Below, one piece after another: positions 3,083 through 43,954 of a DNA stretch of 64,000 bases. The stretch covers positions 1 through 64,000 of the forward strand of contig JBBFLK010000001.1 of the NCBI GenBank assembly GCA_037479115.1, in the 5' to 3' direction. The stretch is from Anaerohalosphaeraceae bacterium. Lineage in GTDB: Bacteria; Planctomycetota; Phycisphaerae; Sedimentisphaerales; Anaerohalosphaeraceae. Each line of letters starts with the position of its first letter. Positions within the stretch are counted from its first letter, which is position 1. A program made the position numbers and the translations under genes. A model generated the notes under the pieces. The model did not search any database. It had not been told where the DNA came from and saw nothing but the letters and a program-made list of their open reading frames with translations.

Positions 3083-4396
3083 CTATTTTTTTCCCAATTG
3101 AAGCTGCCGGATTTCTTTATTGATTCGCAGGGAGCACCAGGGCTTGCCGCACATCGTGCAGTAGTCGTCCTGCGTGGCCTCCTGACCGATGCGGCTGTGA
3201 GCGCAGGCCTCCTCGTACATCGCCCGTGCGGTTTTGGGGTCGAGGGCGTTGTCCAGATGCTCCTTCCAGTTGAGAGCGGCGCGGGCCTCGCTGAGCCGGC
3301 GGTCGCGCTGGACGGCGGCGGGCAGCCCGCGTGCCACATCCGCGGCGTGGGCGGCGATTTTGGCGGCGATGACACCCTGCCGCACATCGTTCACGTCCGG
3401 CAGCCCCAGATGCTCCCGCGGCGTCACGTAGCACAAAAACGAAGCACCGTAATAGGCCGCTGCCGTGCCGCCGATGGCGCTGGTGATGTGGTCATAGCCG
3501 GGGGCACTGTCGGTCACCAGCGGGCCGAGCACATAGAACGGAGCCCCTTTGCAGAGCTGCTGCTGGAGCTCCATATTGTACTGGATTTGATTGAAGGGGA
3601 CGTGGCCGGGCCCTTCAACCATCACCTGACAGCCATTTTCCCAGGCCCGCTGGGTCAGCTCGCCCAGCGTCCGCAGCTCGGCAATCTGGGCCGCATCGGT
3701 GGCGTCGGCCCCACAGCCCGGACGAAGGCCGTCGCCCAGCGAAAAGCTGACATCATACTCCCGCATGATTGCACACAGCTCGTCAAACATCTCATAGAGC
3801 GGATTTTGCCGGTTGTGATAGAGCATCCATTTGGCCAGCAGGGCTCCGCCGCGGCTGACGATGCCGCACACCCGCGAGCCCAGCAGTTCGAGGTGTTCGC
3901 GAAGGACACCCGCGTGGATGGTGAAAAAATCGACGCCCTGGGCGGCCTGCTTTTCGATGACCTTCAGGATGGTGTCGGGCGTAATGTCTTCCACATCGCG
4001 GCCGACGATAACCTCATAAATGGGGACGGTTCCGAACGGCACGGGGCATTCGGCCAGAAGACGCGTGCGGATTTCATCCAAATCGCCGCCGGTGCTCAAA
4101 TCCATAATCGCATCAGCGCCGGCCTCGAGGGCAATCTTCAGTTTCTCCAGTTCCTGCTGCAAATCGGAGCGGACGCTGCTGCATCCGATGTTGGCGTTGA
4201 TTTTGGTGCTGACGGTCCGACCGATGCCGGCGGGGATGAGGTTGCGCGACAAATGTATCCGGTTGGCCGGAATTACCAGCCGACCGGCGGCGGCCTCCTC
4301 GCGGACTATCTCCGGACGCAATCCCTCTTTTTGTGCGACAATTTTCATCGCCTCGGTAATCCGACCCGCCCGTGCTTCTTGCAATTGTGTGGCCAT
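3083..4396 (-). CDS. thiC: Phosphomethylpyrimidine synthase ThiC
   Basis: A radical-SAM enzyme that converts aminoimidazole ribotide to hydroxymethylpyrimidine phosphate for thiamine synthesis. The 437-residue product matches ThiC end to end, including the MVEGPGHVPFNQI segment, the zinc/substrate region with SAPGYDHITSAIGG, and the C-terminal iron-sulfur motif CTMCGKPWC (CX2CX4C, about residues 412-420). It is the short form without the extra N-terminal domain of the roughly 600-residue proteobacterial type. GGAG sits 5 bases before the ATG. No other thiamine gene is adjacent. Control is by the TPP riboswitch directly upstream. Confidence 0.97.
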   Translation of the reverse strand: MATQLQEARAGRITEAMKIVAQKEGLRPEIVREEAAAGRLVIPANRIHLSRNLIPAGIGRTVSTKINANIGCSSVRSDLQQELEKLKIALEAGADAIMDLSTGGDLDEIRTRLLAECPVPFGTVPIYEVIVGRDVEDITPDTILKVIEKQAAQGVDFFTIHAGVLREHLELLGSRVCGIVSRGGALLAKWMLYHNRQNPLYEMFDELCAIMREYDVSFSLGDGLRPGCGADATDAAQIAELRTLGELTQRAWENGCQVMVEGPGHVPFNQIQYNMELQQQLCKGAPFYVLGPLVTDSAPGYDHITSAIGGTAAAYYGASFLCYVTPREHLGLPDVNDVRQGVIAAKIAAHAADVARGLPAAVQRDRRLSEARAALNWKEHLDNALDPKTARAMYEEACAHSRIGQEATQDDYCTMCGKPWCSLRINKEIRQLQLGKK

Positions 4397-4438: not shown

Positions 4439-4454
4439 CAGAAGGGGACTTCTG
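4439..4454 (-). promoter_or_regulatory. Small hairpin between TPP aptamer and thiC
   Basis: CAGAAG and CTTCTG flank a 4-base loop just 3' of the aptamer. There is no T-tract, so it is not an intrinsic terminator. It may be part of the expression platform, which would make the control translational; that is inference. Confidence 0.4.
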
Positions 4455-4460
4455 AAAGGC

Positions 4461-4559
4461 CGCTTCCCTACGCAGGTCTCCGCCGTCGGCGGTTTGCCTG
4501 ATCAGGTTCGAAGGGTTTTTCTCAGGTCATCTCTTTTTTTTTATGACCACCCCCAGCGA
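4461..4559 (-). ncRNA. TPP riboswitch (THI element)
   Basis: On the minus strand the conserved blocks occur in order: CTGGGGGTGG (P1/P2 start), CTGAGA, ACCCTT, GAACCTGATC, then, after a small variable helix, GTAGGGAAGCG. These are the defining core segments of the TPP aptamer. It lies 65 bases before thiC and begins only a few bases after the predicted transcription start, so the nascent RNA starts with the aptamer. Confidence 0.96.
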
Positions 4560-4567
4560 ACTGTAGT

Positions 4568-40993: not shown

Positions 40994-41028
40994 GAAAAAA
41001 AAGCCCCCTTTTGCAAGGGGGCTTTTTT
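40994..41028 (-). terminator. Bidirectional intrinsic terminator
   Basis: AAGCCCCCTT (41001-41010) pairs with AAGGGGGCTT (41015-41024). Seven A precede it and Ts follow it, so it can stop the minus-strand pseudopilin and the plus-strand EPS transcript. Confidence 0.9.
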
Positions 41029-41045: not shown

Positions 41046-42053
41046 TTATCGTACTGAACCGCCAATGAAGTCATTGACAAGGAATGAATCTTCTCCAGAC
41101 ATCGGTGCTTCATCGGTGCCGGTACGGTTCGGGTTTCCGCCGTCCGGCGGGACCCCGCGTCTCCAGTGGAATGGATTCGTGCCGGTGTTTGACGGGTTGT
41201 GGCGTGTATACACGTTGTCATTCTTAACACCCACGTCGGACGTTCTTACAAATTCATTGTGCCCATCCGCAAAGGTAACGTTTTGCCCTTCCCGTTCATG
41301 GGCCTGCGCGTTGGCTACCATAATACACTGGCGAAGATTGACGTTGGGAGGCAGGGTAGGTGAAGTCTCCCAATGGCCGGCTATAGGCGCGACGGTTTCC
41401 GGTGTATAAGCTGTTAAACTTGTAAAGGCTGCTATTGCGGTTGGCAATTTAGGATCATACCAGGGATTTTTGTCCGCCAGAATGGCAAAGGCCGCCGAAC
41501 GCGTATCATCAGCACGGAACCGCCCCGGACTGCCGGTGCTGGCAGTTCCCATATAGGGCTGATGGTAGGCATAGCTGACACAGCGGGGAGCACCTTCTGC
41601 ATCCCAGCCTGAACCAGAGTTTATTGTACCAAAATCCCAGAGTTCTACAATGTCATAGTTTCCGCCATTTTTCCCGGAAAATTCTTTCTGGTCACTGGCC
41701 GGACAGACAAAGGATTTTGGACTGACGTCAGCCAGTCTGACCAAGAGATACAAACTTGCCCCGACAGTGATGTTTCCAGGGGAAGCCCTCCAGTCTTTTT
41801 GAGGGTTCTGCCAACCTGCCGTGTTATCTGCCCAAATATGCTGGGCGCCTCCGCCTTGGCAGGGGAACTGGCCCTGAAAGTCGTTGGCATAAACGGTCAT
41901 GGCGTTGCCCAGGCCCTTGAGGTTGGTGCCGCAGACCACCCGCTGAGCGATCTTTTTGACCTTGTTGAGAGCGGGCATCAGGATGGCCAGCAGCATCGCA
42001 ATGATGGCGATGACCACCAAGAGCTCAATGAGTGTAAAACCTCTCTTTTTCAT
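41046..42053 (-). CDS. Type II secretion / type IV pilin-like pseudopilin with H-X9-DG motif
   Basis: The 335-residue product has a prepilin peptidase site: MKKRG then [16 protein letters not shown] (methylated Phe at 6, Glu at +5). A globular domain follows, and the C-terminal FADGHNEFV motif is typical of the large families in planctomycetes and Lentisphaerae. It is likely processed and placed in the cell envelope or pseudopilus. Its transcript has a roughly 300-base leader with a strong structure, annotated separately. Confidence 0.85.
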
Positions 42054-42075
42054 CGTTTTTACTCCTTAACTGTTG

Positions 42076-42174
42076 AAGATTTGCTCGACAGAGCGCATCC
42101 GGTAAAACACTTACGATAAGTGCAGTTTTTCCCCTACGCAGGGACGTTTTTTCACTTTTCTGTGAGCAAATCTT
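42076..42174 (-). ncRNA. Structured 5' leader element of the pseudopilin mRNA
   Basis: On the minus strand AAGATTTGCTC (42174-42164) is perfectly complementary to GAGCAAATCTT (42086-42076). The stem continues with ACAGA/TCTGT across a one-base bulge, giving 16 bp. Inside it CACTTA-CGA-TAAGTG (42122-42108) can form a hairpin, while an upstream AAGTG could pair with the same CACTT. That gives two mutually exclusive folds. A short CCC-TGCGTA-GGG hairpin lies between. No known riboswitch core was recognised. Confidence 0.55.
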
Positions 42175-42367
42175 ACCGGTTTTTTCAGACCGGATTGCGC
42201 ACGAAATTGGAAAGTTGTTAAAAGGGTGCTTTTCCGACGCTGCCAAACCTAAAAGTGTATTTCTTTTCAGGGGGCAGGTAGAAAGGAGTGAAAAATATAA
42301 CAACAAATAATAAAAAATGATGGCTGTTAACTATTATACCTTTCTGCCTACTTACCCATCTATAGGT

Positions 42368-42397
42368 ATAATACCGGACGTATGAAAAAATTGTCAA
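42368..42397 (-). promoter_or_regulatory. Predicted promoter of the pseudopilin gene
   Basis: TTGACA (42397-42392), an 18-base spacer and TATTAT (42373-42368) on the minus strand, leaving a leader of roughly 300 bases. The remaining AT-rich DNA between 42180 and 42360 shows nothing else, except a second possible -10 further down. Confidence 0.65.
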
Positions 42398-42486: not shown

Positions 42487-42523
42487 ACGCCGTTTTCGGA
42501 CATCTATGATTGAAGGAATTTTT

Positions 42524-43954
42524 ATGAAAACAATAGATATCGACAAAGCCAGGCGACTTTTAGAAGAAATTGAACAGGGGCATTTGCTGACGTTCTGGGG
42601 GGACCTGACGCCGGAGCAGCGGGGGCGGCTGCTGGAGCAAATCCAGCAGCTGGATGTCCGGAATATACCGCGATGGGTACGGGAGACGGTCAAAAATGAA
42701 AAACCGTTGGTGGTGCCGACGGAGTTTGAGCCGGCACCGTCATATCCGCCCGTTCCGCAGAGCCCCGAACAGGAAAAAAAATACGCTCAGGCGCGGCAGA
42801 TTGGGGAAAAACTGCTTCGAGAAGGGAAGGTGGCTGGCTTTGTAGTCGCCGGCGGGCAGGGCACGCGTCTGGGTTATGACGGGCCGAAAGGGAATTACCC
42901 GGTATCTCCTATCAAGAAAAAGACATTGTTCCGCATTTTTGCCGAATCAGTAGCCGCGGCGCGAAAGAAATATGGGACGGTCCTGCCGTGGCTGATTATG
43001 ACCAGCCCGCTCAATCATGAGGAAACGGTCAACACATTTGAAGCCAACAATTACTTCGGGCTCGGGAAGGACACCGTCTTTCTGTTTCAGCAGGGGACGC
43101 TGCCAAATTTCGACTTTGAAGGTCGGATATTCTTGGCGGAGAAAGACACGATTGCCGTCAGTCCGGATGGGCATGGGGGCAGTCTGAAGGCCCTGTACAG
43201 CTCCGGAGTGCTGGCGGAAATGAAAAAGCGGGGTGTGGAGTATTTAAGTTATTGGCAGATTGACAATCCGCTGGTGCAGCTGTTTGACCCGCTTTTCCTC
43301 GGTCTGCATGTGATGGAAGGGGCCGGGATGTCCTCGAAGGCCCTTATCAAAGCGCATCCGCTGGAGAAAGTGGGCAATTTCTGTCTGGTAAACGGCCGGG
43401 TCACGGTGATTGAATACAGCGATTTGCCGGATGAGCAGGCCCATCGGAGGAATCCGGACGGCTCCCTGGTCTTTGAGCTGGGTTCGATAGCGATTCATAT
43501 CCTCAGCCGGGAGTTTGTCGAGCGGCTGAATGCGGACGGGAATTTTGCTCTGCCGCTGCATCGAGCGGTTAAGAAGATACCCCACATTGATTTGACAACG
43601 GGCAAAAAAGTGAATCCGGATAAACCCTGCGGGATTAAATTGGAAACCTTTATTTTTGATGCACTGCCGCTGTCGGAAAAATCTGTGATTCTTCAGACGA
43701 TTCGCAGCGAAGAGTTTGCTCCTGTGAAGAATGCCTCCGGAGAAGACAGTCCGGCGGTGACGGAGCGGATGATGATGGAACGAGCGGCAGCGTGGCTGGA
43801 GAAGGCCGGCGTAAAAGTACCGCGTACAGCAGACGGGCGGTTGGATTGTGTGATCGAGATGGCTCCTTCGTTTGCTTTAACGGCGGAGGATGTAAAGGCC
43901 AACATTCATAAAGTCCCGCCTATCCGGCCGGGAGATACGGTGTATTTGGAATAA
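42524..43954 (+). CDS. UDPGP-type UDP-sugar pyrophosphorylase (UAP1-like)
   Basis: The 476-residue product starts at MKTIDIDKARR with AAGGA 7 bases before it. It has the nucleotide-binding motif VAGGQGTRLGYDGPKG, then NFDFEGRIFL and PDGHGGSLKAL, which place it with eukaryote-type UTP:hexose-1-P or UTP:GlcNAc-1-P uridylyltransferases. It makes a UDP-sugar for polysaccharide or cell-wall use. Whether GlcNAc-1-P or glucose-1-P is preferred is unsure. It has its own promoter, and a separate GlmU-type enzyme lies 3 kb away. Confidence 0.85.
   Translation: MKTIDIDKARRLLEEIEQGHLLTFWGDLTPEQRGRLLEQIQQLDVRNIPRWVRETVKNEKPLVVPTEFEPAPSYPPVPQSPEQEKKYAQARQIGEKLLREGKVAGFVVAGGQGTRLGYDGPKGNYPVSPIKKKTLFRIFAESVAAARKKYGTVLPWLIMTSPLNHEETVNTFEANNYFGLGKDTVFLFQQGTLPNFDFEGRIFLAEKDTIAVSPDGHGGSLKALYSSGVLAEMKKRGVEYLSYWQIDNPLVQLFDPLFLGLHVMEGAGMSSKALIKAHPLEKVGNFCLVNGRVTVIEYSDLPDEQAHRRNPDGSLVFELGSIAIHILSREFVERLNADGNFALPLHRAVKKIPHIDLTTGKKVNPDKPCGIKLETFIFDALPLSEKSVILQTIRSEEFAPVKNASGEDSPAVTERMMMERAAAWLEKAGVKVPRTADGRLDCVIEMAPSFALTAEDVKANIHKVPPIRPGDTVYLE

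Follow-up and report, generated by a model that had tools for sequence, protein, structure and literature searches.

What is the role of a long, structured leader in front of a single pseudopilin gene? The question is raised by the window, that is, the whole stretch of 64,000 nt analyzed here from an Anaerohalosphaeraceae bacterium (contig JBBFLK010000001.1, positions 1 to 64,000), in which the 344 nt at positions 42054-42397 precede a pseudopilin gene on the minus strand. An initial annotation of this region described a good promoter, a 16-bp closing stem and competing hairpins in a leader preceding a pilin-type gene, and proposed a new cis-regulatory switch RNA of riboswitch or thermometer pattern, possibly under the control of a second messenger. 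All the sequence pieces that it described are present on the minus strand, and the downstream gene (42053-41046) indeed encodes a pilin-type protein.

The pseudopilin gene and its promoter region

The pseudopilin gene (41046-42053, minus strand) encodes a protein of 335 aa with a match to the N_methyl family (PF07963). Its best NCBIfam resemblance is to GspG, with a score below the family cut-off. A total of 54 N_methyl matches, this pseudopilin among them, were found in the 3.0-Mb genome of the window, and the leader model described below matches only at the pseudopilin of the window. A terminator-like hairpin, scored on both strands, lies downstream of the gene (41004-41021), and a terminator scan of the window found no minus-strand terminator-like site within the leader. 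In its codon usage the gene does not stand out as one of particularly high expression, and high expression of the pseudopilin was rejected on this ground. Divergent from it, a gene of the UDPGP family (UTP-sugar uridylyltransferase-like) is located at 42506-43954 on the plus strand; the same divergent arrangement was observed at L166, L170, L171 and L172, in genomes of two families. This neighbor is common to some genomes of families f1 and f7 and absent from others which retain the leader, and the element is thus assigned to the pseudopilin. A plus-strand element serving the UDPGP gene was discarded because the leader persists where that gene is absent, keeps a constrained distance to the pseudopilin start and has its promoter directed toward the pseudopilin.

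The promoter noticed in the initial annotation is a sigma-70-type sequence, TTGACA-18-TATTAT, at 42368-42397 on the minus strand, matching 11 of 12 consensus positions. Leaders long enough to include this region show a conserved -35/-10 pair at the equivalent place, about 285-365 nt 5' of the AUG and upstream of the structured element. The pseudopilin transcript would start just after 42368, which would place a first conserved region, element 1 (42274-42351, minus strand), at the beginning of the mRNA. In alignment A4, which comprises 25 leaders and was used for this element, the window shows an inverted repeat P1, GTAGGCAGAAAGG / CCTTTCTACCTGC, closing an AU-rich loop. The inverted repeat reads GGYAGGTT/AACCTGCC across leaders, and the loop contains order-wide three TATCATA-like repeats spaced about 18 nt. 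These repeats (window 42274-42351, minus strand; leaders L103-L128) follow closely after the predicted start of transcription.

The repeats of element 1 could be either RNA sites or a DNA operator. In the latter case the inverted repeat together with the direct repeats of about 18 nt would be bound as DNA, and only the second element of the leader would act as RNA. The repeat spacing near 18 nt favors such an operator, as does the weak covariation of the stem (7 two-sided cells against 3.7 +- 1.8), by which element 1 conserves sequence and not pairing. However, the repeat unit has a very high AU content and is degenerate in family f1, and an operator leaves element 2 without explanation. We entertain the operator tentatively, as the less probable reading of element 1; since it covers element 1 only, it is compatible with a cis-acting RNA downstream. 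A variable spacer separates element 1 from element 2.

A pseudoknot adjacent to the ribosome-binding site

Element 2 is a pseudoknot of about 125 nt in the window, with the order A, B, hairpin and GCAYUUAU core, A', B', Shine-Dalgarno and AUG from 5' to 3', all on the minus strand. Helix B is the long stem of the initial annotation, in which an 11-bp complement of AAGATTTGCTC (42174-42164) with GAGCAAATCTT (42086-42076) extends to 16 bp through ACAGA / TCTGT with one bulged C; its complete arms are AAGATTTGCTCACAG (42160-42174) and CTGTCGAGCAAATCTT (42076-42091). The enclosed hairpin CACTTATCGTAAGTG and an upstream AAGTG, described as competing partners, are both present. The initial annotation missed helix A, formed by GCGCAATCCGGT (42189-42200) and ACCGGATGCGC (42093-42103), which crosses helix B; both arms are supported by covarying pairs in f1 and f7, and the 3' arm also by the scoring of the A/B order. 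Between the B and A' arms lie the hairpin P3, CCC-UGCGUAG-GGG (42131-42143), with 93.5% of cells paired and a loop conserved in family f1 as UGCGUWG, and the unpaired core GCACUUAU (42116-42123), with the order consensus GCAYUUAU. Among 52 leaders, G1 and U5 of the core are found in all 52, U8 in 50, and A3 and A7 in 49 each, counts that are biased upwards by the choice of core positions by best match. Arms A' and B' adjoin each other on the strand, so that helices A and B probably stack end to end, and P3 and the core would project from the stacked helices.

The pseudoknot lies immediately upstream of the ribosome-binding site. Arm B' ends 22 nt before the AUG in the window and 19-25 nt from it in 43 of 50 leaders, where the upstream (rear) edge of the 30S subunit is expected during initiation, at about -19 to -25. 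The Shine-Dalgarno sequence AAGGAG (42062-42067) is not part of the pseudoknot, and the fold predicted for the 147-nt element leaves it unpaired. An RNA thermometer, in which a weak helix masks the Shine-Dalgarno sequence or the AUG, does not agree with this arrangement, where the Shine-Dalgarno sequence lies 3' of B'.

Taken alone, neither the inverted repeat nor the fold energy of the window leader is more than modestly unusual. Of 300 dinucleotide-shuffled versions of the leader, 9 contained a perfect inverted repeat at least 11 nt long. The initial annotation had suggested checking the fold energy against shuffled sequence, and this gave z-scores of -2.9 for 344 nt and -2.6 for 147 nt. It is the comparative evidence that settles the B:B' stem. 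Relatives of the pseudopilin were found by protein search in all 59 genomes tried. Leaders were then taken from the 30 best matches, and in most of these the top-ranking helices near the AUG are two that cross, with the arms following one another as A, B, A', B'. Automated parsing of whole leaders mis-assigned helices in several of them, and covariation was therefore judged on alignments made from sequence alone, namely A2 (17 leaders of family f1, aligned by MAFFT without use of structure) and A5 (15 leaders of a second family, f7).

Covariation in homologous leaders, likewise proposed as a check, is present in both families. In f1, 92.1% of cells in helices A, B and P3 are standard pairs, and two-sided cells number 36, compared with 11.1 +- 3.1 under column shuffling (none of 500 as high) and at most 11 when the registers were slid by 1-3. 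The f7 alignment gives 93.8% paired cells and 37 two-sided cells against 14.1 +- 3.7 (again none of 500), with at most 13 in slid registers and two-sided change in 11 of the 16 A pairs. One caveat is that the structures were derived from the very sequences tested, and that the shuffles take no account of relatedness; it is largely answered by the slid controls and by the two families agreeing. Helix A is represented by 47 distinct A sequences in 52 hand-assigned leaders, each with a fitting A'.

Against Rfam 15, the c-di-GMP and cGAMP riboswitch families included, the element of the window had no credible match when matches up to E = 5 were considered, the three chance matches falling far below cut-off, and 16 homologous loci had none up to E = 1. 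A TPP riboswitch (RF00059, 57.6 bits) is present elsewhere in the window, at 4448-4564 on the minus strand, upstream of a same-strand ORF (3083-4396). The comparative data thus provide good support for the proposal of a new structured RNA in a pilin-type leader: by its alignments it is a conserved, covarying RNA absent from Rfam 15, and element 2 very probably acts in cis on the pseudopilin mRNA. No planctomycete pseudopilin leader RNA was found in a literature search with few subscription papers within reach.

Distribution and permuted leaders

A first covariance model, R1, matched in 46 of 161 genomes of Sedimentisphaerales. A broader model, R2, built from 54 aligned matches, was run on 397 genomes of the class and found the leader in 63, every one in Sedimentisphaerales; in 392 genomes of the phylum it had no match beyond this order. 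Together the two models give about 75 genomes with the leader, all Sedimentisphaerales, and these counts are lower bounds owing to the stricter filters of Infernal. Nearly always one copy is present per genome; few genomes have two, and the second copies that were read lie 5' of paralogous pseudopilins. The downstream frame is a pseudopilin in all 44 model-found loci read, including L118, where its start lies just past the search range and is visible in L172. A general riboswitch with many target genes was consequently rejected, as only pseudopilins were found in the loci read. One contig titled candidate division CSSED10-310 (L138) carries the same pseudopilin and the same pseudoknot leader as are found in Sedimentisphaerales and is probably mis-binned.

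The pseudoknot order, with A upstream of B, was found in 46 of 51 classifiable leaders. For L063, L080 and L067, the scoring placed the sole good A' partner between B and the core, which gives the nested order B-A-core-A'-B'. Two leaders are ambiguous by score; assigned by hand, L066 is nested, bringing the nested leaders to four, and L082 is pseudoknot-like. The nested leaders share gene, core and position with those of pseudoknot order, and all stand before matches to one and the same pseudopilin. Both orders can probably form the same end-to-end helix, because A' and B' are adjacent. In the protein tree, L067 stands beside the pseudoknot-type L065, and L063/L080 and L066 fall in a clade with the pseudoknot-type L062 and L069, whereas the nested leaders are most alike one another. 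The L067 leader is closest, at 69%, to that of L066, though its pseudopilin is closest, at 67%, to that of L065; leader and gene of L067 thus differ in affiliation, as if leaders had been exchanged. This mismatch between tree and leader similarity suggests either a single origin of the nested form followed by leader exchange, or repeated origin.

The same helices and core are therefore found in different strand order in homologous RNAs, as in a non-circular permutation. We know of no other natural case of such permutation beyond hammerhead ribozymes. For the latter it has been reported with helices in altered 5'-3' order, creating or removing a pseudoknot (PMC10085705), which is also the likeness to the leaders described here. 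The difference is that these are leader RNAs and not ribozymes, and that the permuted forms precede orthologous genes. If the permuted leaders work, they would answer the question raised in that study (PMC10085705) on non-circular permutations other than those of hammerheads. In that case, having one leader in both pseudoknot and nested form would also offer a route to asking whether the pseudoknot as such is needed.

Function of the leader and comparison with known systems

The explanation that we favor, and regard as reasonably probable, is a cis-acting structured leader RNA that controls translation and/or stability of the pseudopilin mRNA. It is favored by the association of one gene with one leader, the free Shine-Dalgarno sequence, the folded domain at the ribosome edge and the near-invariant unpaired motifs. 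The pseudoknot, with A:A' crossing B:B', stands directly before the ribosome-binding site, and the end of B' at the upstream edge of the initiating 30S subunit leaves the Shine-Dalgarno sequence free. The folded domain would let the ribosome load and would protect the transcript, and a trans-acting factor, a protein being likelier than a small molecule, may read the conserved unpaired motifs and tune initiation and/or decay of the pseudopilin mRNA. The evidence for this mechanism (ribosome loading, decay or factor binding) consists of position and conservation. Against the explanation count the unremarkable codon usage of the gene and the weak covariation of the element 1 stem.

A leader that protects the mRNA from decay and promotes ribosome loading, in the manner of the ompA leader, might also do so as a purely structural 5' UTR without a dedicated partner. 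The inverted repeat near the predicted 5' end, the strong fold right before an open Shine-Dalgarno sequence and the near-consensus promoter are all consistent with this. Still, the near-invariant unpaired sequences in both elements exceed the needs of a mere barrier, and codon usage gives no sign of especially high expression, which makes such a leader rather unlikely. Alternatively, the leader might be a metabolite or second-messenger riboswitch, in which the pseudoknot and the GCAYUUAU core would form an aptamer and a ligand would alter access to the ribosome-binding site; a pseudoknot with a conserved unpaired core beside the Shine-Dalgarno sequence speaks for it. A conserved, covarying RNA domain in a 5' leader, as expected of a riboswitch, is present. 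Moreover, several lineages have a pyrimidine-rich helix A, and in some leaders, for example L114, L124 and L063, it could pair with the Shine-Dalgarno sequence. Against this, the pairing is weak order-wide (mean z 0.56 +- 0.13), the sole associated gene family is not metabolic and the RNA is confined to one order, and no Rfam riboswitch family matches. Neither form of expression platform was found, there being no order-wide pairing of the Shine-Dalgarno sequence and no minus-strand terminator-like site in the leader, and nothing points to the second messenger proposed initially. A small-molecule riboswitch is less likely than cis control through a trans-acting factor, and on the whole we judge it unlikely.

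Local pairing, either of A with a CCGG just 5' of B or of CACTT with AAGTG, could alternate with the long helices and produce a bistable switch. Arm A can pair locally in the genus of the window (CCGGT/ACCGG) and in L068 and L075 (z above 3), but the local competitor is not significant overall (mean z 0.30 +- 0.15), and the CACTT/AAGTG alternative, on which the initial annotation relied, occurs in four of six members of the genus and is not conserved elsewhere. Such a switch is very improbable. Sequestration of the Shine-Dalgarno sequence by helix A and the local competitor of A were both set aside as weak across the order (z 0.56 and 0.30), and single lineages could use them. Of the switch RNA originally proposed, the structured, covarying and very probably cis-acting leader stands, while the switching finds no support in conservation.

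The leader represents a well-supported family of structured RNAs that Rfam 15 lacks. It occurs in a little-studied phylum, is linked to one gene only, and offers a way into how these bacteria regulate one of their dozens of pseudopilins. More tentatively, it may represent a new class of pseudoknotted leaders that sense a specific partner via the GCAYUUAU core and control surface-appendage synthesis in one order, with a function-preserving non-circular permutation outside hammerheads.

The closest worked-out analogue in position is the operator of T4 gene 32, where the encoded single-strand-binding protein binds a leader pseudoknot of about 28 nt and represses its own mRNA (PMC535899). In both cases, a 5'-leader pseudoknot dedicated to one mRNA is located upstream of the Shine-Dalgarno sequence. 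The element described here is longer, about 125 nt, with an inserted hairpin and core, and its gene encodes a pseudopilin in which only N_methyl was recognized, with no match to an RNA-binding family; the pseudopilin, a prepilin-type membrane protein, is unlikely to be the RNA binder. The leader pseudoknots of rpsO and the alpha operon are likewise RNAs of one gene or one operon that act on translation initiation, a role that may by analogy be proposed for the pseudopilin leader; unlike them, it precedes no ribosomal protein gene and keeps the Shine-Dalgarno sequence outside the pseudoknot. In the stabilizer of the ompA type, too, a cell-surface protein gene has one structure at the 5' end of its leader and a structured region ahead of the ribosome-binding site; the pseudopilin leader differs from it in its covarying pseudoknot with near-invariant unpaired motifs.
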